DNA of 24,613 nt from a virus, in IMG/VR virus record IMGVR_UViG_3300032665_000182, positions 1-24,613 of that record; one strand, given 5' to 3'. This document shows, piece by piece, positions 7,372 to 23,100 of the stretch. Both the position numbers and the translations under genes were made by a program. The notes beneath the pieces were generated by a model. The model worked only from the letters and a program-made list of their open reading frames with translations, was not told where the DNA came from and did not search any database. Positions within the stretch are counted from its first letter, which is position 1; each line of letters begins with the position of its first letter.

Positions 7372-9450
7372 TTAATCATGGTAAGCCCAGTTACCAAGGG
7401 TTCTGACCAATCTGGCGTTTCTATGTATACCAAATTCCTTACATTGTTCAGGAGTCGGCACAATTCTTTCTACCATTCCGCGGTCAATCATGGTTGAAAA
7501 TATATGTGGAATATTACTCTTGTCTCCCGCCACTTTTGAGTCTGTTATTTCCCCGTAAGTGCATCGTCCTAGGTCTTGAATCTGAGTGTTGATGAACTTG
7601 ATTATTCGGCGAGCTGCATCGTCCGCTTTATTCTCAGCATTAACTACTTCGCGCTCCTTCTTACTGGAACTGACTAACTCAACTGAATAGTATGGAGATG
7701 ACTCGTTAATATCCCCATAACGGTTCTTTGATTGCGTGGTGTGGTGGCGTAATACGGCTCGCACTTCCTGAATCGTCTCGCTGAATCTTTTCTTTTTTGT
7801 AGCGAGTATGCGTCCCTCAATATTCTCGTCTTCAAATATAAAGGCTGTACCCGTAGCGTTACCGCCCCAAGCCGACGCGCCCCTCGCACTCAATTCCTCT
7901 ACCGCACTGGTCCTACTCAAAGTCTTTGAGGTATGCCCACTAATCCAGACTGGCATATAGTTACGGTAAAAGAACTCATTGTTAATTACGCTCATTAGGC
8001 GGCTGGCTTCGCTATTGTCGTTTTCATTTTCAAGCACGAACGTAGCGGACGCAGTATCAAATACCGTAAGCGGTGGAATCTCCCGTCCGTCAATATTCAC
8101 CGTAAAGTCTTTTGCGTATTCCGCAGTGAACTTAATTTCATCGTCATTCATACGGAAGGCGGGGATAATCTTTATCCAATACTCCCAATCATCGCGCCCC
8201 AACTTTGAATAATGTGAACGCATACCGTAACAAATGCGGTCGGCTTGCGCATGGTCTTCAGTAATGTAAAGAACGCGCCTACGATGTTTTACCGTCAATC
8301 CCGTTGGTTCGGTTAGGTGTGCTACTTGTAACGCGAGGGGGAGCAATAGGGATGATTTACCTTTACCTTCCGCACCCGCAATAAAGGTTACGCCTTCCCC
8401 AATAAATCCGTCAATAACCCAGTCAGGTTCAGGCAGGTAATCATAACTCAGCGGTACTGGTTTGAACTTCTCAAGAAATTGATCCTTCTTTTTATTTACT
8501 CCTAGTTCTTTTACTAGGTTTTCTCCTACCTCGGTTGATGAATATTCAGGATTCCTAGACGCATAATGATACAAAGTTCCGAGTGTTATCTCGCCACGGG
8601 AGTTTGCATACACATCATTCCATTGATCCTCAATGTCTGCGTCACTCGCTACGGAATGCTTTGCACCTGATGAACGCTTAGACCATTCGTAAAATAATCT
8701 ATAACCATCAGGTATGCGCGCAAGTGAGAAACATATCTGCAACCATTCATCACGAGGGCAATCTGGGTCAATAAAACGCAATGCGCGTTCAATATCTTCC
8801 AATTGCTCAGGTCCAATAATGAGTTGCCCCAATGAACCTTTGCGCTCCGCGGATTCATCTGATATATCTTTGTCTATTTTTCTTTTGATGAACGGCTTCA
8901 GATCAACAATCTCACCGTCTTTAAACATGTTACCAGTAAAGGTAAAAAACTTAGCACGGGAGTAATATTCCCATCCTAACTCACCTGAACGATTCTTACC
9001 GCGGAAGTATTCTCCATAACCAATGGCATGCACCCCATTACCACTCGGACTCATTTCTACGTATCCTGGTAGGCTTTGCGCTAGGGAATCATTCTTGTGC
9101 TCTGTAATATTGTCTAGGTCAATCCCTTGCCAGTATCCCTCACCATCTTTACCGAGCGCAAAACCAAGACCAGTAAAGTTACCTTCACCTAATATCTCTA
9201 CTGCTTTGTCATAAGTTACTAGGCGTTCTAAATCATCAGGGGTGTCAAGAGTACCACGGCGGAATGTCCCGTCAGCATAATACGGAACTTTTCTGGACTT
9301 GTTGCTGTTACTTTTATCTTTCTCACTGCGCCAGAGTAACCATCGCCGAGCATGCCGCATCTTTTCAGGGACGATATCCTTGAAGCCGTCATTACTTTTA
9401 ATTTCCTCAGTATTGTAGTCACCGAGGTTAAATCCAAATCTGTTAGCCAT
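7372..9450 (-). CDS. Bifunctional primase-helicase (Prim-Pol domain plus RecA-like helicase)
   Basis: Expected to prime and unwind DNA at the phage fork. Of 692 residues, about 25-180 form an archaeo-eukaryotic type Prim-Pol domain: GLGFALG (94-100), the catalytic GIDLDN (109-114, Asp111 and Asp113), SPSGNGVHAIG (134-144, His141) and a late EYYSRAKFFTFTG. Residues about 210-300 resemble the PriCT_2 helical domain. Residues 340-580 are a RecA/RepA-like (AAA_25) ATPase: Walker A GAEGKGKSS (359-367), a VLYITEDHA strand, Walker B-like LTVFDTASA, and VWISGHTSK. The start has only a weak ribosome binding site (GGAT), and a large hairpin lies in the probable leader. Its first residues resemble those of the DUF669 protein at the other end of the window. 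It is the first gene of the packaging-strand unit, away from the polymerase. Confidence 0.88.
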   Translation of the reverse strand: MANRFGFNLGDYNTEEIKSNDGFKDIVPEKMRHARRWLLWRSEKDKSNSNKSRKVPYYADGTFRRGTLDTPDDLERLVTYDKAVEILGEGNFTGLGFALGKDGEGYWQGIDLDNITEHKNDSLAQSLPGYVEMSPSGNGVHAIGYGEYFRGKNRSGELGWEYYSRAKFFTFTGNMFKDGEIVDLKPFIKRKIDKDISDESAERKGSLGQLIIGPEQLEDIERALRFIDPDCPRDEWLQICFSLARIPDGYRLFYEWSKRSSGAKHSVASDADIEDQWNDVYANSRGEITLGTLYHYASRNPEYSSTEVGENLVKELGVNKKKDQFLEKFKPVPLSYDYLPEPDWVIDGFIGEGVTFIAGAEGKGKSSLLLPLALQVAHLTEPTGLTVKHRRRVLYITEDHAQADRICYGMRSHYSKLGRDDWEYWIKIIPAFRMNDDEIKFTAEYAKDFTVNIDGREIPPLTVFDTASATFVLENENDNSEASRLMSVINNEFFYRNYMPVWISGHTSKTLSRTSAVEELSARGASAWGGNATGTAFIFEDENIEGRILATKKKRFSETIQEVRAVLRHHTTQSKNRYGDINESSPYYSVELVSSSKKEREVVNAENKADDAARRIIKFINTQIQDLGRCTYGEITDSKVAGDKSNIPHIFSTMIDRGMVERIVPTPEQCKEFGIHRNARLVRTLGNWAYHD

Positions 9451-9483
9451 TAATTGATCCGCTTTTGTTGTTCGTTTAACAAT

Positions 9484-9584
9484 GAGTTCATTTTAGGTTC
9501 CTCACCAATAGCCGATTGGTTGCGTGGCCAAGCGGATGACTCGTGAAGGAGCTGGCGTATTGATGAGGAAGCTAAAATGAACTC
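9484..9584 (-). repeat. Long inverted repeat in the leader of the primase transcript
   Basis: The arms 9484-9513 and 9554-9584 pair over about 30 bases with two mismatches and one bulge; the outermost 21 bases have a single mismatch. The loop is about 40 bases and includes the small palindrome TGGCCA. On the minus strand the structure starts roughly ten bases after the predicted leftward transcription start and ends 33 bases before the primase ATG. It could be a 5' mRNA stabilising hairpin, a processing site, an attenuator, or a DNA element such as an origin or operator pair. Confidence 0.8.
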
Positions 9585-9615
9585 AACCACGCACCTTGAA
9601 TTATAGTTCATTTTA
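9485..9615. promoter_or_regulatory. Three copies of TAAAATGAACT around the leftward promoter (possible operators)
   Basis: The 11-base word occurs on the plus strand at 9573-9583 and on the minus strand at 9495-9485 and 9615-9605. Two copies are the outer arms of the long inverted repeat; the third lies directly upstream of the leftward -10 box, inside its spacer. This placement would suit binding of a regulator that loops or blocks the promoter. No candidate regulator gene was recognised in the window. Confidence 0.5.
9592..9607 (-). promoter_or_regulatory. Leftward promoter for the primase-packaging unit
   Basis: The minus strand reads GAACTATAATTCAAGG with a perfect TATAAT at 9605-9600, nearly the same as the 16-base rightward promoter block. 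The -35 region is poor. Transcription would begin near 9593 and run into the long hairpin and then the primase gene. Confidence 0.6.
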
Positions 9616-9647
9616 CACGCCACGGGTTTCCCCTCACAAAATATCCC

Positions 9648-9720: not shown

Positions 9721-10467
9721 ATGACTTTTGAATTACCCGTAGCCGCCGTCTCTCCTTTGCAATCCGAGGGTCTCTCGCAGAAATACCAGATCATTCACAC
9801 CACCGACGTAGTGGACATCATGACCGAGCATGACTTCATCGTTACGCAGGTACATTCGATGAAGCCTAGAGTCCGTGATCCCCGTGTTGTAGAACATTTT
9901 ATTAGATTGCGGCACAAAGACTTTTCTCACGAAATTAACGGCACAATCCCTGAAGTGTTAGTAGTCAATTCTAACGATGGTTCAACTTCATTACGCATGG
10001 ACGCTGCGCTGTTCCGCTTGATTTGCGGGAATGGTTTAATCGTCAAATCCGCTGATATCTATAGGTCTCGGCTACGCCACGTGGACGTGACTGAGCAATC
10101 AGTTATTGAGGAATCAAAAAAGGTTATCAACGCTGCAATAGAAGCCGCAAAGCGTATTGAAAAGTTTCAAAAGAAAATACTAATGGGTTACGCGGTATAT
10201 GAGTTTGCATGCGAGGCTAGTGAATTAGCCCTCAAAATTGTAGGTTCAAATATTAAACCAGGAGACCTATTAGTTTCTAGGCGAGATGAGGATTCAGGCG
10301 GTGCACTCTGGAACGTCCTGAACCGAGTTCAAGAGAACCTAGTCAAAGGCGGAATCACTTATCGCACTCGCAAAGGTCGGCAGATGACCTCACGAGGCAT
10401 CACTGGTGCTACGCCGTTAATTCAAATGAACGAACGCTTATGGGCATTAGCGGAGGACTATCTATGA
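9721..10467 (+). CDS. DUF932 domain protein
   Basis: A 248-residue protein of the DUF932 family (phage/plasmid-like proteins), common in phages and plasmids and of unknown biochemical role. The family hallmark is in the middle: PEVLVVNSNDGSTSLRMDAALFRLICGNGLIV (about residues 78-109) followed by RSRLRHVD. A helical region with IEAAKRIEKFQKKIL follows, then a C-terminal domain with GGALWNVLNRVQENLVKGG and a basic RTRKGRQMTSRGI. It is the first gene of the rightward unit, transcribed from the promoter just upstream, with an AAAGGA ribosome binding site. Its stop overlaps the next start (ATGA), so the small genes behind it are co-translated. Confidence 0.8.
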   Translation: MTFELPVAAVSPLQSEGLSQKYQIIHTTDVVDIMTEHDFIVTQVHSMKPRVRDPRVVEHFIRLRHKDFSHEINGTIPEVLVVNSNDGSTSLRMDAALFRLICGNGLIVKSADIYRSRLRHVDVTEQSVIEESKKVINAAIEAAKRIEKFQKKILMGYAVYEFACEASELALKIVGSNIKPGDLLVSRRDEDSGGALWNVLNRVQENLVKGGITYRTRKGRQMTSRGITGATPLIQMNERLWALAEDYL

Positions 10468-10748
10468 ACGCAAATGAACTACCAGCAGAACAATTAGCTC
10501 AATGGTGCGATGAAGCATCACAGGAATATGGTAATAAACCACTTGTGCAGGTAGCCAACATGCTACGCAAGCAACACGCTGAAATAGAAGCATTGAAAGA
10601 ACCAAAGATACCTTTACTTGAGCAAGAAATTAAATTCATACTTGGTAATGGTCAATGCTGGCAAGGTGAAGATTGTAGTATGCCGAACCTAATGTACATT
10701 ATTCGTGCAGTAGAGGTGGCACATGGAATAGGAGTTAAACAAAAATGA
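10464..10748 (+). CDS. Small protein with LRKQHAEIEALK helix and AHGIG C-terminus
   Basis: A 94-residue protein of unknown function. The ATG at 10464 is preferred over an upstream in-frame start because GGAGG lies eight bases before it and it forms an ATGA overlap with the DUF932 gene. Residues about 33-45 (MLRKQHAEIEALK) are a short coiled-coil-like helix whose DNA and protein sequence recur in the next gene and in the 11519-11680 gene. The C-terminus (IIRAVEVAHGIGVKQK) shares the VE..HGI ending with two minus-strand proteins. It is the first member of an array of shuffled small genes. Confidence 0.65.
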   Translation: MNANELPAEQLAQWCDEASQEYGNKPLVQVANMLRKQHAEIEALKEPKIPLLEQEIKFILGNGQCWQGEDCSMPNLMYIIRAVEVAHGIGVKQK

Positions 10749-10969
10749 ACATACAAAGATTAATAGAAACACACAACACCCATGAAGAACCACATGACTG
10801 GTCGGAACAAGCTAAAGAGGCGTTGGGGCAATTACAAAATGCTTTAGAACAAGAAACCACCATGCTACGCCAGCAACAAGCTGAAATAGAGGCGTTAAAA
10901 ATGGAAATACATTCTTTGACTTATGGCAAAAGACTTGCAGAATACTTGAAAAAGGCACAAGAGAAATGA
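10745..10969 (+). CDS. Small coiled-coil protein ending KAQEK
   Basis: A 74-residue, almost entirely helical protein. It starts in an ATGA overlap with the previous gene. Residues 40-52 (MLRQQQAEIEALK) are nearly identical to a segment of the preceding product, and about 40 bases of DNA there are almost the same. It ends EYLKKAQEK, encoded by the junction sequence AAGGCACAAGAGAAATGA that also supplies the ribosome binding site and start codon of the next gene. Function unknown. Confidence 0.65.
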   Translation: MNIQRLIETHNTHEEPHDWSEQAKEALGQLQNALEQETTMLRQQQAEIEALKMEIHSLTYGKRLAEYLKKAQEK

Positions 10970-11322
10970 ACAATAAACCAGTAGCGTGGATTGCGGTAGG
11001 TGATAACACAAGTGTATTTTTTGATTTAGATTGTGCTTTGGCAATTGATGAAAACCCAACACCACTCTACACCCATCCAGCAAAAGAACTAGATGAACAG
11101 TTTAAGAAAGGTTTTGAAGCTGGCAAAGAAGAAGGGTGGAAAGCCCATAAGTTTCACCATCCAGCAAAGACACTAACAGATGAGGAAATAGAGGAAGTGC
11201 GTATAACCATTATGAACACCGCATACTGGTGCGCTGATGAAAATATGTCAGAAGCATATAACGCAGTCAAAGTATGTTGTAGTGAAGTATTAGCAATATT
11301 AAGAAAGGCACAAGAGAAATGA
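10966..11322 (+). CDS. Cassette protein with THPAK and HPAKTLTDEE motifs, ending KAQEK
   Basis: A 118-residue protein. It opens NNKPVAWIAVGD and continues to PTPLYTHPAKEL (residues about 33-44), then a Lys/Glu-rich helix, then HHPAKTLTDEEIEEVR (about 64-79) and a Cys-containing helical end. PVAW...PLYTHPAK proteins of this type are frequent in phage small-gene arrays, with no known function. CATCCAGCAAA is repeated internally (near 11075 and 11159), suggesting duplication. The last residues and the next start come from the repeated junction sequence. Confidence 0.7.
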   Translation: MNNKPVAWIAVGDNTSVFFDLDCALAIDENPTPLYTHPAKELDEQFKKGFEAGKEEGWKAHKFHHPAKTLTDEEIEEVRITIMNTAYWCADENMSEAYNAVKVCCSEVLAILRKAQEK

Positions 11323-11522
11323 GCTTAATTGAAATGCGTGAAGATTTATGCACCCAAAAACGAGTTAGTAGGTCAAGAGTTACCTACGATATTAACTATG
11401 ACCAAGAAGTTATTTATACCCAAGAAGGTTGGAATGATGGTCAAAATACAGTTTGGGACAATGAAATAGGCATTGTTTTGGTAGATGCTTTATCTAAACA
11501 TAAAAAGGTACAAGAGAAATGA
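11319..11522 (+). CDS. Small cassette protein ending KVQEK
   Basis: A 67-residue acidic protein of unknown function (YDINYDQEVIYTQEGWNDGQ in the middle). Start and stop both lie in copies of the junction sequence; the downstream copy has a T in place of C, changing the ending KAQEK to KVQEK. No domain is recognised. Because it shares only its junctions with its neighbours, it looks like an independent insert into a common frame. Confidence 0.6.
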   Translation: MSLIEMREDLCTQKRVSRSRVTYDINYDQEVIYTQEGWNDGQNTVWDNEIGIVLVDALSKHKKVQEK

Positions 11523-11680
11523 ACGCTAAAGAACTGGCTGAAGATTTAGAAGGCGCTAAGTTAGTAATTTTAAGACTACAAGCTGAAATAGAGGCGTTGA
11601 AAGCAGAAAAAATTAGGGCTTATGACAATGGATATGAAGATGGTAGAAAGCCTAATACAAATAAGGCACAAGAGAAATGA
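11519..11680 (+). CDS. 53-residue coiled-coil protein ending KAQEK
   Basis: A short gene from the ATG at 11519 (ATGA overlap with the preceding stop) to the TGA at 11680. The product begins MNAKELAEDLEGAKLV, continues with LRLQAEIEALKAEK, and ends NTNKAQEK. The 20-base stretch at 11579-11598 is identical to 10877-10896 in the second gene of the array, so the coiled-coil segment is a shared module. Its stop overlaps the start of the PLP enzyme gene. Small, but supported by junctions, helix repeat and coupling. Confidence 0.6.
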   Translation: MNAKELAEDLEGAKLVILRLQAEIEALKAEKIRAYDNGYEDGRKPNTNKAQEK

Positions 11681-12633
11681 GCCAATCAATCATTCCTACC
11701 CACACTCTTGACCGCAGTGTAATCAAGTGGGAGGATCACTTAATGGATCTCACTCCCGTTGAGAATCACAAAGGCATGTGGTTCAAGCGGGAGGACTACT
11801 TCAATACGCTCGGTTACGGTGGACCGAACGGGAGTAAGTTGCGCCAGTTAATTTATTACATGACAAAGAACCGAAAAGGTAAGACGCACGTACTCACTGG
11901 TGCGTCAATTCAAAGTCCGCAACTTTCAATGTCCGCTATTGTGGGCGCGCACCTTGGTTTACCTTCCCGCATGGTTGTGTACTCAAAGCCTGACACTGTA
12001 TTGCGCCATGACAACCCGCGTATTGCTAGGGGGTTCGGTACGCAGTTTGAGTATGCCGCAGCACCGTACAACCCAGTGTTACAGCGCATGGTAGGTGACC
12101 TTACCCGCTCTGACTCCCTAGTAGTTAACTATGGCATTACCGTTGACCATAGAGAACACCCTGAAGACTTGATGGGCTTTCATGACGTCGGGGCTAATCA
12201 GACGAGGAACATTCCGGATGAGGTCAAGACTTTAATTGTACCCGCTGGTTCATGCAATTCACTCTGCAGTATACTCCTTGGGCTTTCAAGAGATGCGCAC
12301 AACATTGAAACATTATTTACCGTCGGTATTGGACCCAGTAAAGCCCAATGGATTCGGGAACGCGCAGAGATTATGGGTATCAATCTTGACGCATTGCCGT
12401 TCAGGTGGAAGCATCATTCCTTGCATGACACGGGCTACTCAAAATATACTGATAAATTTAATGGTGAATCTTATGACGGAATCAAGTTTCATCCCACGTA
12501 CGAGGCAAAAGTTTGGCGATATTTAACTCAACAAGGGATGGACTTTGATGACAGCGCACTTTTTTGGATTATAGGGTCGGAGCCGAAGTTAAGCGTAATT
12601 ACGCCTCATTTTACGCATCCTTTTTCTAACTAA
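11677..12633 (+). CDS. Fold-type II PLP-dependent enzyme (ACC deaminase / D-cysteine desulfhydrase / tryptophan synthase beta-like)
   Basis: A 318-residue protein, the usual length for this fold. Residues 35-60 (WFKRED, then GGPNGSKLRQLIYYM) match the family block that holds the Schiff-base lysine, here probably Lys54. TGASIQSPQL (74-83) fits the conserved substrate-binding segment, and PAGSCNSLCSILLGL (189-203) stands where a Gly-rich phosphate loop is expected, though with fewer glycines. The reaction is unknown; relatives deaminate, desulfhydrate or eliminate from amino acids. It is the last gene of the junction-repeat array, with an ATGA overlap. Two roles fit: a metabolic auxiliary enzyme, or a tailoring enzyme acting on an amino acid attached to modified thymidine by the downstream module. 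The second is inference. Confidence 0.75.
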   Translation: MSQSIIPTHTLDRSVIKWEDHLMDLTPVENHKGMWFKREDYFNTLGYGGPNGSKLRQLIYYMTKNRKGKTHVLTGASIQSPQLSMSAIVGAHLGLPSRMVVYSKPDTVLRHDNPRIARGFGTQFEYAAAPYNPVLQRMVGDLTRSDSLVVNYGITVDHREHPEDLMGFHDVGANQTRNIPDEVKTLIVPAGSCNSLCSILLGLSRDAHNIETLFTVGIGPSKAQWIRERAEIMGINLDALPFRWKHHSLHDTGYSKYTDKFNGESYDGIKFHPTYEAKVWRYLTQQGMDFDDSALFWIIGSEPKLSVITPHFTHPFSN

Positions 12634-14955: not shown

Positions 14956-15152
14956 ATTGGGAACAGTCTTATGACGATTGGGTCAAGCTACTTGAACGAG
15001 CCAATGCAAAAGATATGCTCAATGACCCAAAAGCCTGTTTTGATGAAGGATGGCGTCAAGCAGCTATGATCGCCGCTTCAATCGTGCAACACAATCAACA
15101 CGCAACACCACTTGAAATTGCAGTATTTATTGAGCGAAAATTATTAAAATGA
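14934..15152 (+). CDS. Small hypothetical protein
   Basis: A 72-residue, mostly helical protein. It has an acidic and aromatic N-terminus (NWEQSYDDWVKLLERA), then FDEGWRQAAMIAASIVQHN and a C-terminal helix ending ERKLLK. It begins inside the end of the previous membrane protein gene with AGGA upstream and runs into the homing endonuclease gene by a four-base overlap. The EGW.QAA.IAA.IV pattern recurs in phage small proteins of unknown function, and the 15723-15989 product has a similar stretch. Confidence 0.6.
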   Translation: MSDKSIMNWEQSYDDWVKLLERANAKDMLNDPKACFDEGWRQAAMIAASIVQHNQHATPLEIAVFIERKLLK

Positions 15153-15739
15153 ACTATCAAAAAATTTACACTTTGTTAATTGATAATGCCAAACTACGTG
15201 ATTCAATTGACGGATATAAAGAACGTCATCACATAATTCCTAAATCTTTAGGCGGTTCTAATGATAATTCCAATTTAGTTGATTTAACAGCTAGAGAACA
15301 TTTTATTGCTCATTATTTGTTAGCAAAGATTCATGGAGGATTAGCATGGAGAGCTGTTATTTGCATGAAAGGTTCAAATAACGCTTATGTTAATTCTCGT
15401 TTATATCAAGTGGCTAGAATAAAATTTTCAGAAGCTCAAACAGGTAGTAAACATCCAATGTTTGGTAAAAAGAATCCCAAACGCTCGGAAATGAATAAAT
15501 TAACAACTGGTGACAGACATCCGATGTATGGTAAAAAACATTCTGAAGAAACTTTAATTAAATTTCGTTTTCCAAAATCTGAGCAACATAAACAGCGTTT
15601 ATCAAAATCAAGAAAAGGAAAATACGCAGGTGAGAATCATCCTATGTATGGGCGTAAATATAAAGTCCAAGAAGTTGTTAAACAATTTGCATTTAATTAT
15701 CAATACAATTTAGGAGAATTACATGTCAGAACAATCTGA
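15149..15739 (+). CDS. HNH homing endonuclease with NUMOD3 repeats
   Basis: A 196-residue free-standing HNH endonuclease, a selfish element that cuts related genomes lacking it and spreads by repair. The nuclease motif is at residues 25-60: ERHHIIPKSLGG, then NSNLVDLTAREHFIAHYLL, with His27/His28, Asn42 and His51. Three NUMOD3-type DNA-binding repeats follow (GSKHPMFGKK, GDRHPMYGKK, GENHPMYGRK). The sequence is visibly AT-richer than its neighbours, as expected for a recent arrival. Unusually for an insertion it is translationally coupled on both sides: a four-base overlap upstream and a 17-base overlap downstream, and it supplies the AGGAG for the next gene. Confidence 0.9.
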   Translation: MNYQKIYTLLIDNAKLRDSIDGYKERHHIIPKSLGGSNDNSNLVDLTAREHFIAHYLLAKIHGGLAWRAVICMKGSNNAYVNSRLYQVARIKFSEAQTGSKHPMFGKKNPKRSEMNKLTTGDRHPMYGKKHSEETLIKFRFPKSEQHKQRLSKSRKGKYAGENHPMYGRKYKVQEVVKQFAFNYQYNLGELHVRTI

Positions 15740-17825: not shown

Positions 17826-18419
17826 ATGAACGTAATTCTATCACTCCGCGGAACTTCAGGCTCAGGTAAGACCACTGTAGCCCGTAAGTTTTTGACAGAT
17901 TACCCCTGCTCAGCAATAATAGACCCCAACGGTAAAAAGAAACATTGGGGGTATCATGTTGATTTGTCAAGTCAAGGAATTACTCAGCCGCTTTATGTGA
18001 TTGGTAGTTATGAAAACACTTGCGGAGGTACAGATGGTATCAGTACTCAAGAGGAAATTGCAGAACGAGCCTTGGCTGCTCATCCTAGGGGTCATGTTCT
18101 GCTTGAAGGTTTGTTACTCTCAAAAGTGGGTCCAGGAGCAATCACAACACAGATGCTTAAACCAACGGGTTCATACGTCGCGGCTATCCTCGATACGCCC
18201 CTCGCAACTTGCCTACAGAGAGTGCAAGCGCGTAGAGATGCCCGTGGGGAAACAAAGCCGTTCAATCCAGCGAATACTGTAAGCGCACATAAATCTACTT
18301 ATGACGCTTGCGTTAATTTGCATAATGCAGGTGGAGTAAAAATTATTACAATAGATCACACCGATGCCTTTAATGACACTCTAGAAGTTATCAGAAAGGC
18401 AGAGAATGGCACTCTTTAA
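17826..18419 (+). CDS. 5-hydroxymethyl-dU DNA kinase (P-loop kinase)
   Basis: Expected to phosphorylate 5-hydroxymethyl-dU residues in phage DNA, activating them for amino acid attachment. The 197-residue protein has Walker A GTSGSGKTT (9-17), a DPNGKKKHWGYHV segment, the motif GSYENTCGGTDGI (60-72), which matches the pattern I recall for this kinase family, and a VLLEGLLLSKVG strand (91-102). A lid-like QARRDARGETKPFNP near residue 140 completes it. The next gene begins 14 bases before its stop. In several phages this kinase is fused to or next to the helical domain encoded there. The call is supported by motif and context. Confidence 0.75.
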   Translation: MNVILSLRGTSGSGKTTVARKFLTDYPCSAIIDPNGKKKHWGYHVDLSSQGITQPLYVIGSYENTCGGTDGISTQEEIAERALAAHPRGHVLLEGLLLSKVGPGAITTQMLKPTGSYVAAILDTPLATCLQRVQARRDARGETKPFNPANTVSAHKSTYDACVNLHNAGGVKIITIDHTDAFNDTLEVIRKAENGTL

Positions 18420-19269
18420 TGAATTGGTTGAGTTTGTTAATGAACGAGAACAAATACGCCTAAACAAGGAGAAATCATTTCTACCGCCATATACGCTTGA
18501 TCCAATACTCGCTAAGTATCGGTTCTGTAATGTGCGTCGTAGGGATGACAGGGTAAGTAAGTGGCTCCTAACTTATTACTATAAGAATGTTCAAGGTGAC
18601 GTATGGTTCCGCGCCCTGTTAGCTCGTTTGATTAATTGGCCACCGACCCTGCTTTACCTTATGGATAACCTCGTGATTCCCCGCCGCGCTGAGGAGTTTA
18701 ATCCTTACTTGTTTATTGAGGCGATGAAGCATCTAGAATCCAAAGGTGAAAAGGTATATAGCTCTGCTTATATTGTTTACCCAACGATGGTCAAAGGTAA
18801 CACAAAGTCTGTAAACCTCGCGGAGTATATTATTGCGCCAATCATCAAGATTGCACCGCAGATTCGTGGGGCGATTGCTTCTGGTTCAATCAAGCATACT
18901 ACTAATGCGTTAGCTACTTCATTCGGTATTCAAACCTTTATAGCTGGGCAAGTGAGTTCAGATTTAACGTACATACGCGGGCAGCTTGACAATGCTATAG
19001 ATTTATATTCATGGGCACCGATGGGTCCAGGCAGTCAGCGTGGGTTGAATAGGTTGCATGAACGCACTATTAGTAAAAAGTTTACTGAGGAAAGATTCAA
19101 TCAGGAATTAACAGAGATCCGTTCAATCTTGATTGATTCAAATAATAAATTAAAAGATTTAACCCTGCATGATTGTCAAAACATCATGTGTGAGTTTGAT
19201 AAGTATCAAAGAGTAGTAAAAGGAGAGGGTAAGCCTCGTCAGAATTACAAACCAACAACAGAATTTTAA
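18406..19269 (+). CDS. DNA base hypermodification protein, helical domain (HMUDK_hel / aGPT-Pplase-like)
   Basis: A 287-residue, largely helical protein. Residues about 9-54 carry the recognisable block FVNEREQIRLNKEK, then PYTLDPILAKYRFCNVRRRDDRVSKWL, typical of the helical partner of 5-hydroxymethyl-dU kinases and of alpha-glutamyl/putrescinyl thymine pyrophosphorylase proteins. WFRALLARLINWPPTLLYL follows, and a DLYSWAPMGPGSQRGLNRL segment (about 198-216) resembles the second half of that family. It overlaps the kinase gene by 14 bases. Its biochemical step is less certain than the kinase's; it may bind modified DNA or take part in pyrophosphate activation or transfer. Confidence 0.65.
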   Translation: MALFNELVEFVNEREQIRLNKEKSFLPPYTLDPILAKYRFCNVRRRDDRVSKWLLTYYYKNVQGDVWFRALLARLINWPPTLLYLMDNLVIPRRAEEFNPYLFIEAMKHLESKGEKVYSSAYIVYPTMVKGNTKSVNLAEYIIAPIIKIAPQIRGAIASGSIKHTTNALATSFGIQTFIAGQVSSDLTYIRGQLDNAIDLYSWAPMGPGSQRGLNRLHERTISKKFTEERFNQELTEIRSILIDSNNKLKDLTLHDCQNIMCEFDKYQRVVKGEGKPRQNYKPTTEF

Positions 19270-19282
19270 TAAAGGAAATAAC

Positions 19283-20263
19283 ATGGAAATACGTTCTATC
19301 AACGTAAATGAATTATTTACTGATATGCTCTGGCGTTTTAAAACCTCAGGTGTAAAGGTTCAAACTCGTAATGGTCCTGCTTTGCGTATTGATGAACCAG
19401 TGCTGACTACAATCATCGAGCCGACTGAGCGCGTATTGTTCTTTGCTGAACGAGACGCGAATCCAATCTTTCACTTAATGGAATCAATCTGGATGCTCGC
19501 GGGACGTGATGACGTAGAGTTCCTGAAGCAGTTTAATTCTACCATTGGTCAATTCAGCGATGACGGCGTAAGATTCAACGCGGCGTACGGACACAGGATG
19601 CGTAAGCACTTTGGATTTGACCAACTCAAAGAGGTTATCAAGCACCTCAAGACTGATTCTAATTCCCGTCAGGCGGTTATTCAACTCTGGGATGCATCTG
19701 ACTTCAACAAAAGCACAAAGGATAAAGCCTGTAATACGCAGTTAGTATTTGCTGTTGTGAACGGATGTGTTGATTTGACAATCTTCAACAGGAGTAATGA
19801 TTTCTGGTGGGGATACTGCGGGGCGAATCCAGTTCACTTCTCTATGATTCAAGAGTTTGTAGCGATTGCGCTTGAGCTGCCAGTCGGTCAATACTTTACG
19901 GTGAGTAACAATCTGCATCTATATATTGAACTCTACAACGCTCAGCCGTATGTAGAAAATCCGCCGAGCAGTGAAGTATTTGATGCGTATTCAAACGGAG
20001 TAGTCAAGCCTAGTGTTTTGTATCAAGGTGATTGGGAACTATTCCTAACTGAGTGCGAGGCATTCTGCAATGACCCATTCAAGAAAAGTGGATTCGTTAA
20101 TCCCTTCTTTGAGTTTGTAGCGCAGCCAATGGCTATGGTCGCATATGAGCGTAAGCATAAGATTAGCGATGGCTCATATTGGGCAGATAAGATTTCAGCC
20201 TCTGACTGGAAGTTAGCTACTCAGATTTATATTATGAACAGAGAGAAGAAAAATGCTAGCTAA
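19283..20263 (+). CDS. Thymidylate synthase homologue, probable dUMP hydroxymethylase
   Basis: A 326-residue thymidylate-synthase fold enzyme. Residues 128-137 hold SRQAVIQLWD, the phosphate-binding Arg region. The catalytic Cys is Cys150 in KACNTQLVFAV, where classical enzymes have PPCH. Then come NRSNDFWWGYCGANPVHFSM (169-188) and NNLHLYIELY, matching the dUMP contacts with a CGAN in place of PFNI. This CN / GAN subtype is common in phages with hydroxymethyluracil or hypermodified thymidine, so 5-hydroxymethyl-dUMP from dUMP and methylene-tetrahydrofolate is the likely product rather than dTMP. It has its own leader (19268-19280) directly after the helical-domain gene. Confidence 0.85.
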   Translation: MEIRSINVNELFTDMLWRFKTSGVKVQTRNGPALRIDEPVLTTIIEPTERVLFFAERDANPIFHLMESIWMLAGRDDVEFLKQFNSTIGQFSDDGVRFNAAYGHRMRKHFGFDQLKEVIKHLKTDSNSRQAVIQLWDASDFNKSTKDKACNTQLVFAVVNGCVDLTIFNRSNDFWWGYCGANPVHFSMIQEFVAIALELPVGQYFTVSNNLHLYIELYNAQPYVENPPSSEVFDAYSNGVVKPSVLYQGDWELFLTECEAFCNDPFKKSGFVNPFFEFVAQPMAMVAYERKHKISDGSYWADKISASDWKLATQIYIMNREKKNAS

Positions 20264-20579: not shown

Positions 20580-22414
20580 TGGGGACTATTGTTTTTGATA
20601 CTGAAGTTGCCCCAAACATGTTTCTATTAATGGGTAAGATTCTTGAGAGCGGAGAATACTTCGGTATCTGGGGAGATGATGAAGACGCTCGTGAGCGCGT
20701 CAAGTCTCTTTTCAAATCAAAAAATACATTCATTAGTTTTAATGGTTCAAAGTATGATATGCCCGTTATTAGTTATTTTATAGCGGGTAAATCAGAATTA
20801 GAATGTAAAAAGCTGGGAGATAGAATCATCGGGGATAACTTGATGCCTTGGGATGCTGAAAAGCAATTCAGGTTCAAGATCCCTATGATTGACCACATTG
20901 ATTTGATTGAGGTCGCGCCCAGCTTTGTGAGCCTAAAGACTTACGGCGCACGTATGCACATGCCGCTCATTCAAGACCTGCCGTTTCATCATTCGCAGGA
21001 GATTGATGAGTCTGCCCGACCAATGGTTTGGGATTACTGCAAGAACGACTTAGATACTACAGAGACGCTTTATAACAAGCTGCAAGGGCAACTCCAGCTT
21101 AGAGTTGAAATTAGTAAGGAGTATGGTTTTGATGCTCGTTCTAAATCTGACTCTCAAGTAGCTGAGCAGATGTTTATCAAGCGGCTCAAGTTAAAGCGTT
21201 CAAATGCAAAAATTCCTGAGAGCGTGCGGTATATAGTTCCACATTTTATTAACTTTAAACGCGCTGACCTTATTGAATTAACAAGAAGGATGTCAGAGCA
21301 CGTATATGAAGTTAAGCAGTCAACGGGGCACGTAGAGTTACCTGCCTTTCTGAAGGAAGACCTCGTAACGATAAACAATGGTATATATCAGATGGGCGTT
21401 GGAGGTCTTCATTCACAACACGATAGAAAGGTTTGCCATGTTACTGATGATGATTATCAAATTGTTGATTATGATGTTTCTAGTTATTATCCTAGCATTT
21501 TGCTTAATTGCAATCTCATACCTGTTAACACTGGTACAACCTTTATTGATGAGTATCGCAAAGTGTTCGAGAGACGATTAGAAGGTAAACGTCAAAAGAA
21601 CATGGTAATTGCAGATTCATTGCGGATTGCATTGAACGGAACATTCGGTAAAACAGCTAGTAAGTATTCAGCACTGTATTCTCCCGACGTTATGATTAAT
21701 ATTACTCTGACGGGTCAGCTTACTCTTTTAAACTTAATTGAGACTTTAGAGGACAATGGTATTCAAGTTGTTTCAGCCAATACCGACGGAATCATGCTCA
21801 AGCATAGGCGTAACGAGGTCACAAAAGTTCACAACATTGTAAAAGAGTTTAGCGACTTGACTGGCTTTATATTTGAGGATACGCCGTATAGAGCTGTTGC
21901 ACTCAAAGACGTAAATTCATATTTTGCGGTAAAACAAGACAGGTCATTAAAAGTAAAAGGGATATATGCGCCTTTAAGTTTAAATAAAAATCCAACTGCA
22001 CAAGTAGCTTCAAAAGCATTTGGATTATGGTTGTCTAGAGGCGCTCCAATGATGGAAACTATAAAGAATTCATTATTTTTAGATTTTATTTCTGCTAGAA
22101 ATGTAACTGGCGGAGGAGAACAAAATGGTAAATATTTAGGAAAAACGGTCAGATGGTACCAAACTAAAGACAAAAATTTTCAACCATTGAGATACAAGGA
22201 AAACGGTAATAAAGTTCCAAAAACTGACGGGGCTAGAGCCTGCATGAAAATAGAAGATCCTAATAAACATCCAGAAGATTTGGATTATGAATGGTATCTT
22301 TACGAATCAGTTATAATTGCTAACAACTGCGGTTGCGGTGAATGGCTTGACAAAGATTTATTAGAAAAAGCATTGTTGTCAAGGGGTATAAAATCAAAAA
22401 AGGCATCAAAATGA
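20579..22414 (+). CDS. Family B DNA polymerase with 3'-5' exonuclease
   Basis: The replicative polymerase, compact at 611 residues. Exonuclease motifs: FDTE (6-9, Asp7/Glu9), FNGSKYD (54-60, Asp60) and YCKND (153-157, Asp157). Polymerase motif A is DVSSYYPS (299-306), motif B is RIALNGTFG (349-357), and motif C is SANTDG (399-404), where the usual DTD has become NTD; catalytic Asp403 remains. It lacks a large N-terminal domain and resembles the viral/organellar PolB group. No terminal-protein gene is recognised nearby. From about 21930 the DNA becomes richer in A and T and a homing endonuclease gene follows with an ATGA overlap, so the 3' end may have been converted with it. Confidence 0.88.
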   Translation: MGTIVFDTEVAPNMFLLMGKILESGEYFGIWGDDEDARERVKSLFKSKNTFISFNGSKYDMPVISYFIAGKSELECKKLGDRIIGDNLMPWDAEKQFRFKIPMIDHIDLIEVAPSFVSLKTYGARMHMPLIQDLPFHHSQEIDESARPMVWDYCKNDLDTTETLYNKLQGQLQLRVEISKEYGFDARSKSDSQVAEQMFIKRLKLKRSNAKIPESVRYIVPHFINFKRADLIELTRRMSEHVYEVKQSTGHVELPAFLKEDLVTINNGIYQMGVGGLHSQHDRKVCHVTDDDYQIVDYDVSSYYPSILLNCNLIPVNTGTTFIDEYRKVFERRLEGKRQKNMVIADSLRIALNGTFGKTASKYSALYSPDVMINITLTGQLTLLNLIETLEDNGIQVVSANTDGIMLKHRRNEVTKVHNIVKEFSDLTGFIFEDTPYRAVALKDVNSYFAVKQDRSLKVKGIYAPLSLNKNPTAQVASKAFGLWLSRGAPMMETIKNSLFLDFISARNVTGGGEQNGKYLGKTVRWYQTKDKNFQPLRYKENGNKVPKTDGARACMKIEDPNKHPEDLDYEWYLYESVIIANNCGCGEWLDKDLLEKALLSRGIKSKKASK

Positions 22415-23100
22415 ATCCGAATTGTTACGTTTACAAATTAGAAGACAAAATAAATGGAAAGTACTATATAGGTTCAAATTATAAGAAAAATTCAAATCCA
22501 AGCCATATAGGAACTTCTTATTTTACTTCTAGCAAAATTGTTAGGAATATGTTTAGAGAAAATCCAAATAGATTCACAATAAGTATTCTTTTCATAGGTT
22601 ATCCTGATGAAGTGATAGAATTTGAAACTTTTACTCTGAAAAAGTTAAATGCTAGAAAAGATGAAAGATCTTACAATTGTCACAATAATGAAGGTGAATT
22701 GAACAGTAGAAAAATTGGAAAATTAACTCATGATAGCAAAATAGGAGTTCACGGTAGAAGTAAAGAAAAAATTCTTGAAGATTGTAAAAAAGCAGGTAAA
22801 GTGTCATGTGAATTAAGACATATGACTAAAGATTCTGATGGTAAAAGTATTTTTGCAAAGATGATCGGATCTGCTTCCCATTTAGAACGAGATGAACGCG
22901 GTAAAAGTATTAGAATGATCAAAGTGGGTAAAGCAACGATGGCAAAACTGCATTCAGAAAAGAATCTTGACGGTAAAAGTTTAATGGTTATGAGAAAATA
23001 TACTTGTTCAGAATGCGGATATTCTCATATCGCAATGATGATTGGCAAACATCAAAAGAAAACTGGACATTCTGGTAAGGTTTTAAATAATGAGCTATAA
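22411..23100 (+). CDS. GIY-YIG homing endonuclease
   Basis: A 229-residue free-standing homing endonuclease placed directly behind the DNA polymerase gene. The catalytic domain is at the N-terminus: YVYKLEDKINGKYYIGSNY (GIY-YIG variant with YVY and YIG), a conserved FRENPNRFTI and the metal-binding Glu in VIEFETFTLKKLNA. Residues about 137-195 contain three DGKS/RGKS-type repeats (DGKSIFAKMIGSA, RGKSIRMIKVGKA, DGKSLMVMRK), probably DNA-binding modules. The end has a C2H2-like finger (CSECGY, then HQKKTGH). The gene is AT-rich compared with flanking genes. Its last codons overlap the third promoter block. Confidence 0.85.
   Translation: MNPNCYVYKLEDKINGKYYIGSNYKKNSNPSHIGTSYFTSSKIVRNMFRENPNRFTISILFIGYPDEVIEFETFTLKKLNARKDERSYNCHNNEGELNSRKIGKLTHDSKIGVHGRSKEKILEDCKKAGKVSCELRHMTKDSDGKSIFAKMIGSASHLERDERGKSIRMIKVGKATMAKLHSEKNLDGKSLMVMRKYTCSECGYSHIAMMIGKHQKKTGHSGKVLNNEL

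Follow-up and report, generated by a model that had tools for sequence, protein, structure and literature searches.

Folding kinetics or the cutting of a stem gates translation in the MS2 maturation-gene leader and at the RNase III site of the lambda N leader. A pseudoknot at the 5' end of E. coli tisB mRNA activates ribosome standby (PMC7708055), and transient co-transcriptional structures control access to the Shine-Dalgarno (SD) sequence in the aapA3 type I toxin mRNA (PMC6733600). The operator of phage T4 gene 32 is bound by protein and serves autogenous control (PMC535899).

The locus described here lies in a 24.6-kb virus record, which was analyzed over its whole length (the window). Its leftward gene encodes a primase-helicase with PriCT_2 and AAA_25 domains, and the divergent gene a DUF932 protein. 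Two arms of 28 nt each (9483-9510 and 9558-9585; 26 of 28 positions paired, 93% complementary) form the longest close inverted repeat of the window, with 14 + 13 pairs, one G-U among them, in the long stem. The original prediction of a 30-bp hairpin with a 40-base loop is therefore right about the hairpin itself, its loop being nearer 47 nt and its arms slightly wider than stated. Folding of the leftward RNA, proposed as a check, gave -52.7 kcal/mol compared with -34.3 +/- 3.9 for shuffled sequences (z = -4.7), and none of 200 shuffles was as stable. When the window and related loci were scanned for long arms with loops of 25-90 nt, the hairpin alone passed the threshold in the window and nearly all repeats above it were copies of this element; one other was a different repeat in the near-identical pair L080/L081. 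Comparative data indicate that the hairpin is the trunk of a larger conserved folded RNA element, predicted to stand at the start of a lake-phage mRNA (Table 1).

Table 1. Putative promoter, predicted leader structures and first gene of the leftward transcript in the window (RNA letters given for the leftward strand)
Feature	Positions	Strand	Basis
-10 box TATAAT of the inferred leftward promoter	9600..9605	-	sequence; relatives have a -10-like hexamer 4-6 nt 5' of P1
P1 5' strand UGCGUGG, predicted first transcribed nucleotides	9587..9593	-	complementarity to 9521-9527, with covariation across seven lineages
P2a 5' arm, basal half of long stem	9572..9585	-	pairs with 9496-9483
Y.Y mismatch pyrimidine C9571, opposite C9497, adjoining UUAG/CUAA	9571	-	C.C in the window, replaced by U.C or U.U in relatives
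P2b 5' arm, apical half of long stem	9558..9570	-	pairs with 9510-9498
P3, small apical hairpin GCUC-CUUCAC-GAGU (GCUCCUUCACGAGC in L145)	9539..9552	-	predicted folds
PK2 loop strand AUCCGCUU	9530..9537	-	complementary to 9457-9464; compensated pair AUUCCGCUU/AAGCGGAAU in L008
P5, small hairpin UUGG/CCAA whose loop displays the P1 3' strand	9516..9531	-	relatives: UGA/UCA, UUGAA/UUCAA, AUUGA/UCAAU
P1 3' strand CCACGCA	9521..9527	-	complementarity to P1 5' strand
P2b 3' arm	9498..9510	-	inverted repeat; pairing across lineages
P2a 3' arm, without the unpaired mismatch base C9497	9483..9496	-	inverted repeat; pairing across lineages
A-rich linker from stem to SD region	9465..9482	-	sequence
PK2 3' strand AAGCGGAU with best anti-SD match CGGAU	9457..9464	-	complementarity to loop
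Primase-helicase ORF (PriCT_2, AAA_25), first gene of leftward transcript	7372..9450	-	domain matches

As originally proposed, the hairpin is located between the leftward -10 box (9605-9600) and the primase ATG (9450-9448), the putative promoter, like the -10 boxes of all lineages, having been read from sequence alone. Transcription is expected to start near 9593, about 8 nt 5' of the stem, in agreement with the roughly ten bases suggested before. The consensus promoter scan did not list the leftward TATAAT of the window because a good -35 is missing, and the -10 boxes of the relatives were likewise not called. Between the divergent promoters (about 9625-9640), there is a GTGAAAACCC-like block with equivalents in L006, L007, L011 and L081, mostly 22-23 nt before the leftward -10, which is a possible operator. 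On the opposite strand, a promoter-like block GAGCTATAATTTCAAC is repeated 5' of rightward genes (9668, 17786 and 23088, +), and a ribosome-binding block AATAAAGGAAATA is common to many of them (9703, 12708, 12965, 13588, 14228, 19265 and 23434, +). Other rightward regions of the window include tandem small ORFs in which start regions and a coiled-coil-like segment (QQAEIEALK) recur (10440-11690, +), ORFs resembling HNH and GIY-YIG homing endonucleases by eye (15149-15739 and 22411-23100, +), and matches to 5-hmdU DNA kinase domains together with a thymidylate synthase (17826-20263, +), which suggest modified phage DNA.

Relatives were gathered by using the primase, DUF932 and terminase proteins as queries, and all of them are uncultivated virus contigs. 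Besides near-identical copies (L001-L005, L009), seven diverged versions were found (L008, L006, L007, L011, L080/L081, L145 and L146-L150/L152), each immediately upstream of the primase ATG, with the long stem-loop ending 20-40 nt short of this codon in each relative. The element goes with the primase and not with DUF932, since the divergent upstream gene differs in L081. Kept in all are a stem of about 24-26 bp with a pyrimidine-pyrimidine mismatch, complementarity of the first 6-9 transcribed nucleotides to the apical loop (P1), and complementarity of the loop to the SD region of the primase (PK2); apart from UUAG/CUAA and patches of the loop, little sequence is conserved. A covariance model (R1) built solely from L006, L007, L011 and L081 recovers the window (E = 4.9e-5), L008 (1.3e-3), L145 (4.9e-7) and L147 (8.3e-6), E-values that are rough because the calibration was short; its weak scores on the opposite strand are expected because the element is a long inverted repeat. 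The search of terminase-related loci for further members yielded L080/L081 and L008 alone, and the scan of bacterial genomes found no relative. In the comparison with named phages, L081 had no DNA match and L154/L155 no significant R1 match, and L153, whose primase is related at 42%, lacks the element. Four extra matches to the DNA pattern CTCCTC..GACCGACATC (L058, L060-L062) lie in coding regions and were discarded as chance. Near a distant primase-like gene, L085 (2130-2215; also L110) has a 19-bp hairpin with a 48-nt loop, whose CAUCCA is complementary to UGGAUG in the leader; R1 does not match this hairpin.

The stem is kept by compensating changes across lineages. Uncompensated variation of the arms in relatives had been named as the observation that would speak against the hairpin, and the arm changes turned out to be compensated. 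In a MAFFT alignment of the four closer sequences, pseudoknots included, 92.6% of cells were paired and seven pairs had changed on both sides; none of 500 shuffles equalled this pairing, which fell below 50% when the partner was slid by 1-3 columns. An earlier, smaller set gave 94% pairing, a value reached by none of 1000 shuffles, which gave 74%. Because MAFFT misaligned the mixed set, a hand-made structural alignment was used across all lineages, in which 321 of 326 cells were paired and both sides had changed at 41 pair positions; these counts are inflated because registers were chosen by eye, and, the sequences being related, they do not represent independent events. The helices of this alignment contain 15 G-U cells and no A-C cells. 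As G-U is tolerated and A-C never is, it is the RNA of the leftward strand that is selected.

This asymmetry bears on a role at the DNA level. The adjoining primase gene makes it conceivable that a cruciform or single-strand hairpin serves, for instance, as a replication origin or as a site where primase is loaded. The GC-skew plot recommended as a check does have its cumulative minimum near the hairpin, at about 10 kb, but this is also where the coding strand switches. Selection on the RNA of one strand disfavours an origin acting as DNA only, one of the roles originally listed, and with P1 beginning at the predicted transcription start and PK2 overlapping the SD region, we consider a DNA element very improbable.

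Through PK2, pairing of the SD region to an element upstream of it is conserved in eight sequences. The best anti-SD match in the ~25 nt preceding the ATG is 5-9 nt upstream of this codon and shares 3-5 nt with the PK2 3' strand in all eight; these matches are mostly weak (-2.9 to -3.5 kcal/mol) and are good in L081 (-7.3) and L147 (-6.0). In one group, the loop of P3 contains the PK2 loop strand; in the others, this strand lies between P3 and P5. The PK2 helix is compensated between the window and L008. In every lineage, P1 starts no more than 1-2 nt away from the predicted transcription start, as judged by a -10-like hexamer followed by 4-6 nt. Since P1 and PK2 are helices of 6-10 bp picked after the sequences had been seen, per-sequence shuffle tests offer a fairer check than pair counts. 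P1 was equalled in 2 of 5000 shuffles for L145, 4 of 5000 for L081 and up to about 7% for L006 and the window; the values for PK2 were 3 of 5000 (L008), 11 of 5000 (L147) and up to about 12% (L007). Taken singly, P1 is thus unremarkable in the window and L006, as is PK2 in L007 and L011; the best helices of both kinds land in the same structural place each time. Together, these comparisons show that the predicted complementarities of the loop to the 5' end and to the SD region survive sequence change. The original prediction missed these two loop pairings, with the first nucleotides of the transcript and with the SD region, which are the main finding of this study and point to translational control.

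Only 0-4 nt separate P1 from the base of the stem, and its partner is at the far end of about 26 bp (~70 A). Given this short joint and A-form geometry, a single molecule should not be able to hold P1 and the complete stem at once, an argument from distances and not a computed result. Folding of the growing transcript with ViennaRNA, which scores no pseudoknots and is not a kinetic simulation, gave a P1 probability of about 0.8-1.0 once its partner had been made and of about 0 after the P2 3' arm had emerged, in eight of eight sequences. Burial of the terminal nucleotides in P1 or beside the long stem might instead protect a long mRNA from pyrophosphohydrolase and from 5'-dependent decay, as would be allowed by P1 starting no more than 1-2 nt from the predicted +1 in all lineages. 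Such 5'-end protection is unlikely, for it leaves PK2 unexplained and much of the 5' end is unpaired in the final predicted fold. Attenuation, with the long stem as terminator and P1 as antiterminator, could draw on the five or six T found 3' of the stem in L006, L007, L011 and L145. Although it was among the roles first listed, it is not conserved: the U-run is absent in the window, L081 and L147, the base of the stem is AU-rich, and no terminator was called at the stem in the window, L007 or L006, so that we give this role hardly any credence.

The best reading of these data is a leader with an SD-sequestering pseudoknot and a transient fold of the 5' end, from which we infer repression and timing of primase translation. 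The P2 stem of about 26 bp would present a loop with two short segments, one for P1 and the other for PK2. During transcription, P1 would form first; as the P2 3' arm emerges, the long stem would zip up and have to evict P1, and the SD region, once made, would be captured by the loop so that translation is shut. The 5' end would compete for a time and so order or delay the folding. Most primase would be synthesized during a period fixed by the folding kinetics, or else once the balance is tipped by a ligand, a protein or a nuclease. That the region acts in cis, as a structured RNA leader at the 5' end through which translation of the phage primase is controlled, has in our estimate a probability of roughly 50%.

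Two other readings account for parts of the same architecture. Host RNase III might cut the long stem, so that the loop is removed and the SD freed as an on-switch, or the half-life of the mRNA is set. The stem is long enough at about 26 bp, lies in the 5' leader and is preserved by compensation, but such cutting leaves the complementarity of the loop to both the 5' end and the SD unexplained, and we know of no need for the conserved mismatch; we regard it as rather unlikely. Similarly doubtful is a ligand riboswitch or an operator bound autogenously by primase or another replication protein, with the apical junction as pocket and PK2 as expression platform. The conserved Y.Y mismatch adjoining UUAG/CUAA, the junction of several hairpins, the replication gene downstream and the precedent of T4 gp32 (PMC535899) speak for it; against it, little sequence is conserved outside UUAG/CUAA and the loop patches, unlike typical aptamers, with no highly conserved core seen.

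We also checked the element against known RNA families. In five members, every match to the Rfam 15 covariance models was far below the gathering score, and none to the HDV-like ribozyme models appeared at E <= 10. The strand order P1, P2, P3, P1', P4, P2' of HDV-like ribozymes resembles that of the L006/L007 group; however, the stem of the element is far too long, only 1-2 nt lie between P4 and P2, and there is no conserved C and no joining region with a catalytic C, so this candidate was rejected. ARAGORN found no tRNA-like element. The small ORFs across the arms in the window (9612-9452; ATGAACTCA at both arms) are probably coincidence because they are not conserved in L006, L007 or L081, and a leader peptide was likewise discarded. 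The literature search returned mechanistic parallels and not this element, which, for an open-access subset, is weak evidence of novelty. The RNA family has apparently not been described before; comparative evidence for it in a group of uncultivated phages is strong, and its position would suit control of the gene through which DNA replication is entered. More tentatively, the element may belong to a new class of regulatory RNA in phages, with the first transcribed nucleotides and the SD both directed at a single apical loop across a stem of about 26 bp whose formation is incompatible with the 5'-end pairing; it would then act as a built-in folding timer or signal-driven switch for translation of a replication gene. 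If confirmed, it would be a compact natural case tying together transcript start, co-transcriptional folding and SD access.

The MS2 maturation-gene and lambda N leaders are unrelated to the element in sequence and architecture. In the T4 gene 32 operator, by contrast, we know of no long stem and of no pairing of the +1 nucleotides. The likeness to gene 32 of T4 and RB69 consists in a phage replication gene with structured RNA 5' of the ribosome-binding site, the related phage being diverged yet similarly structured (PMC535899). The resemblance to aapA3 lies in its transient structures, although that RNA is a toxin mRNA with an antisense RNA and has no long stem-loop plus pseudoknot (PMC6733600). 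With tisB, the element shares a structured leader near the mRNA 5' end, with a pseudoknot and a sequestered ribosome-binding site; in contrast to tisB, its loop is predicted to pair directly with the SD, and it has a stem of about 26 bp (PMC7708055).
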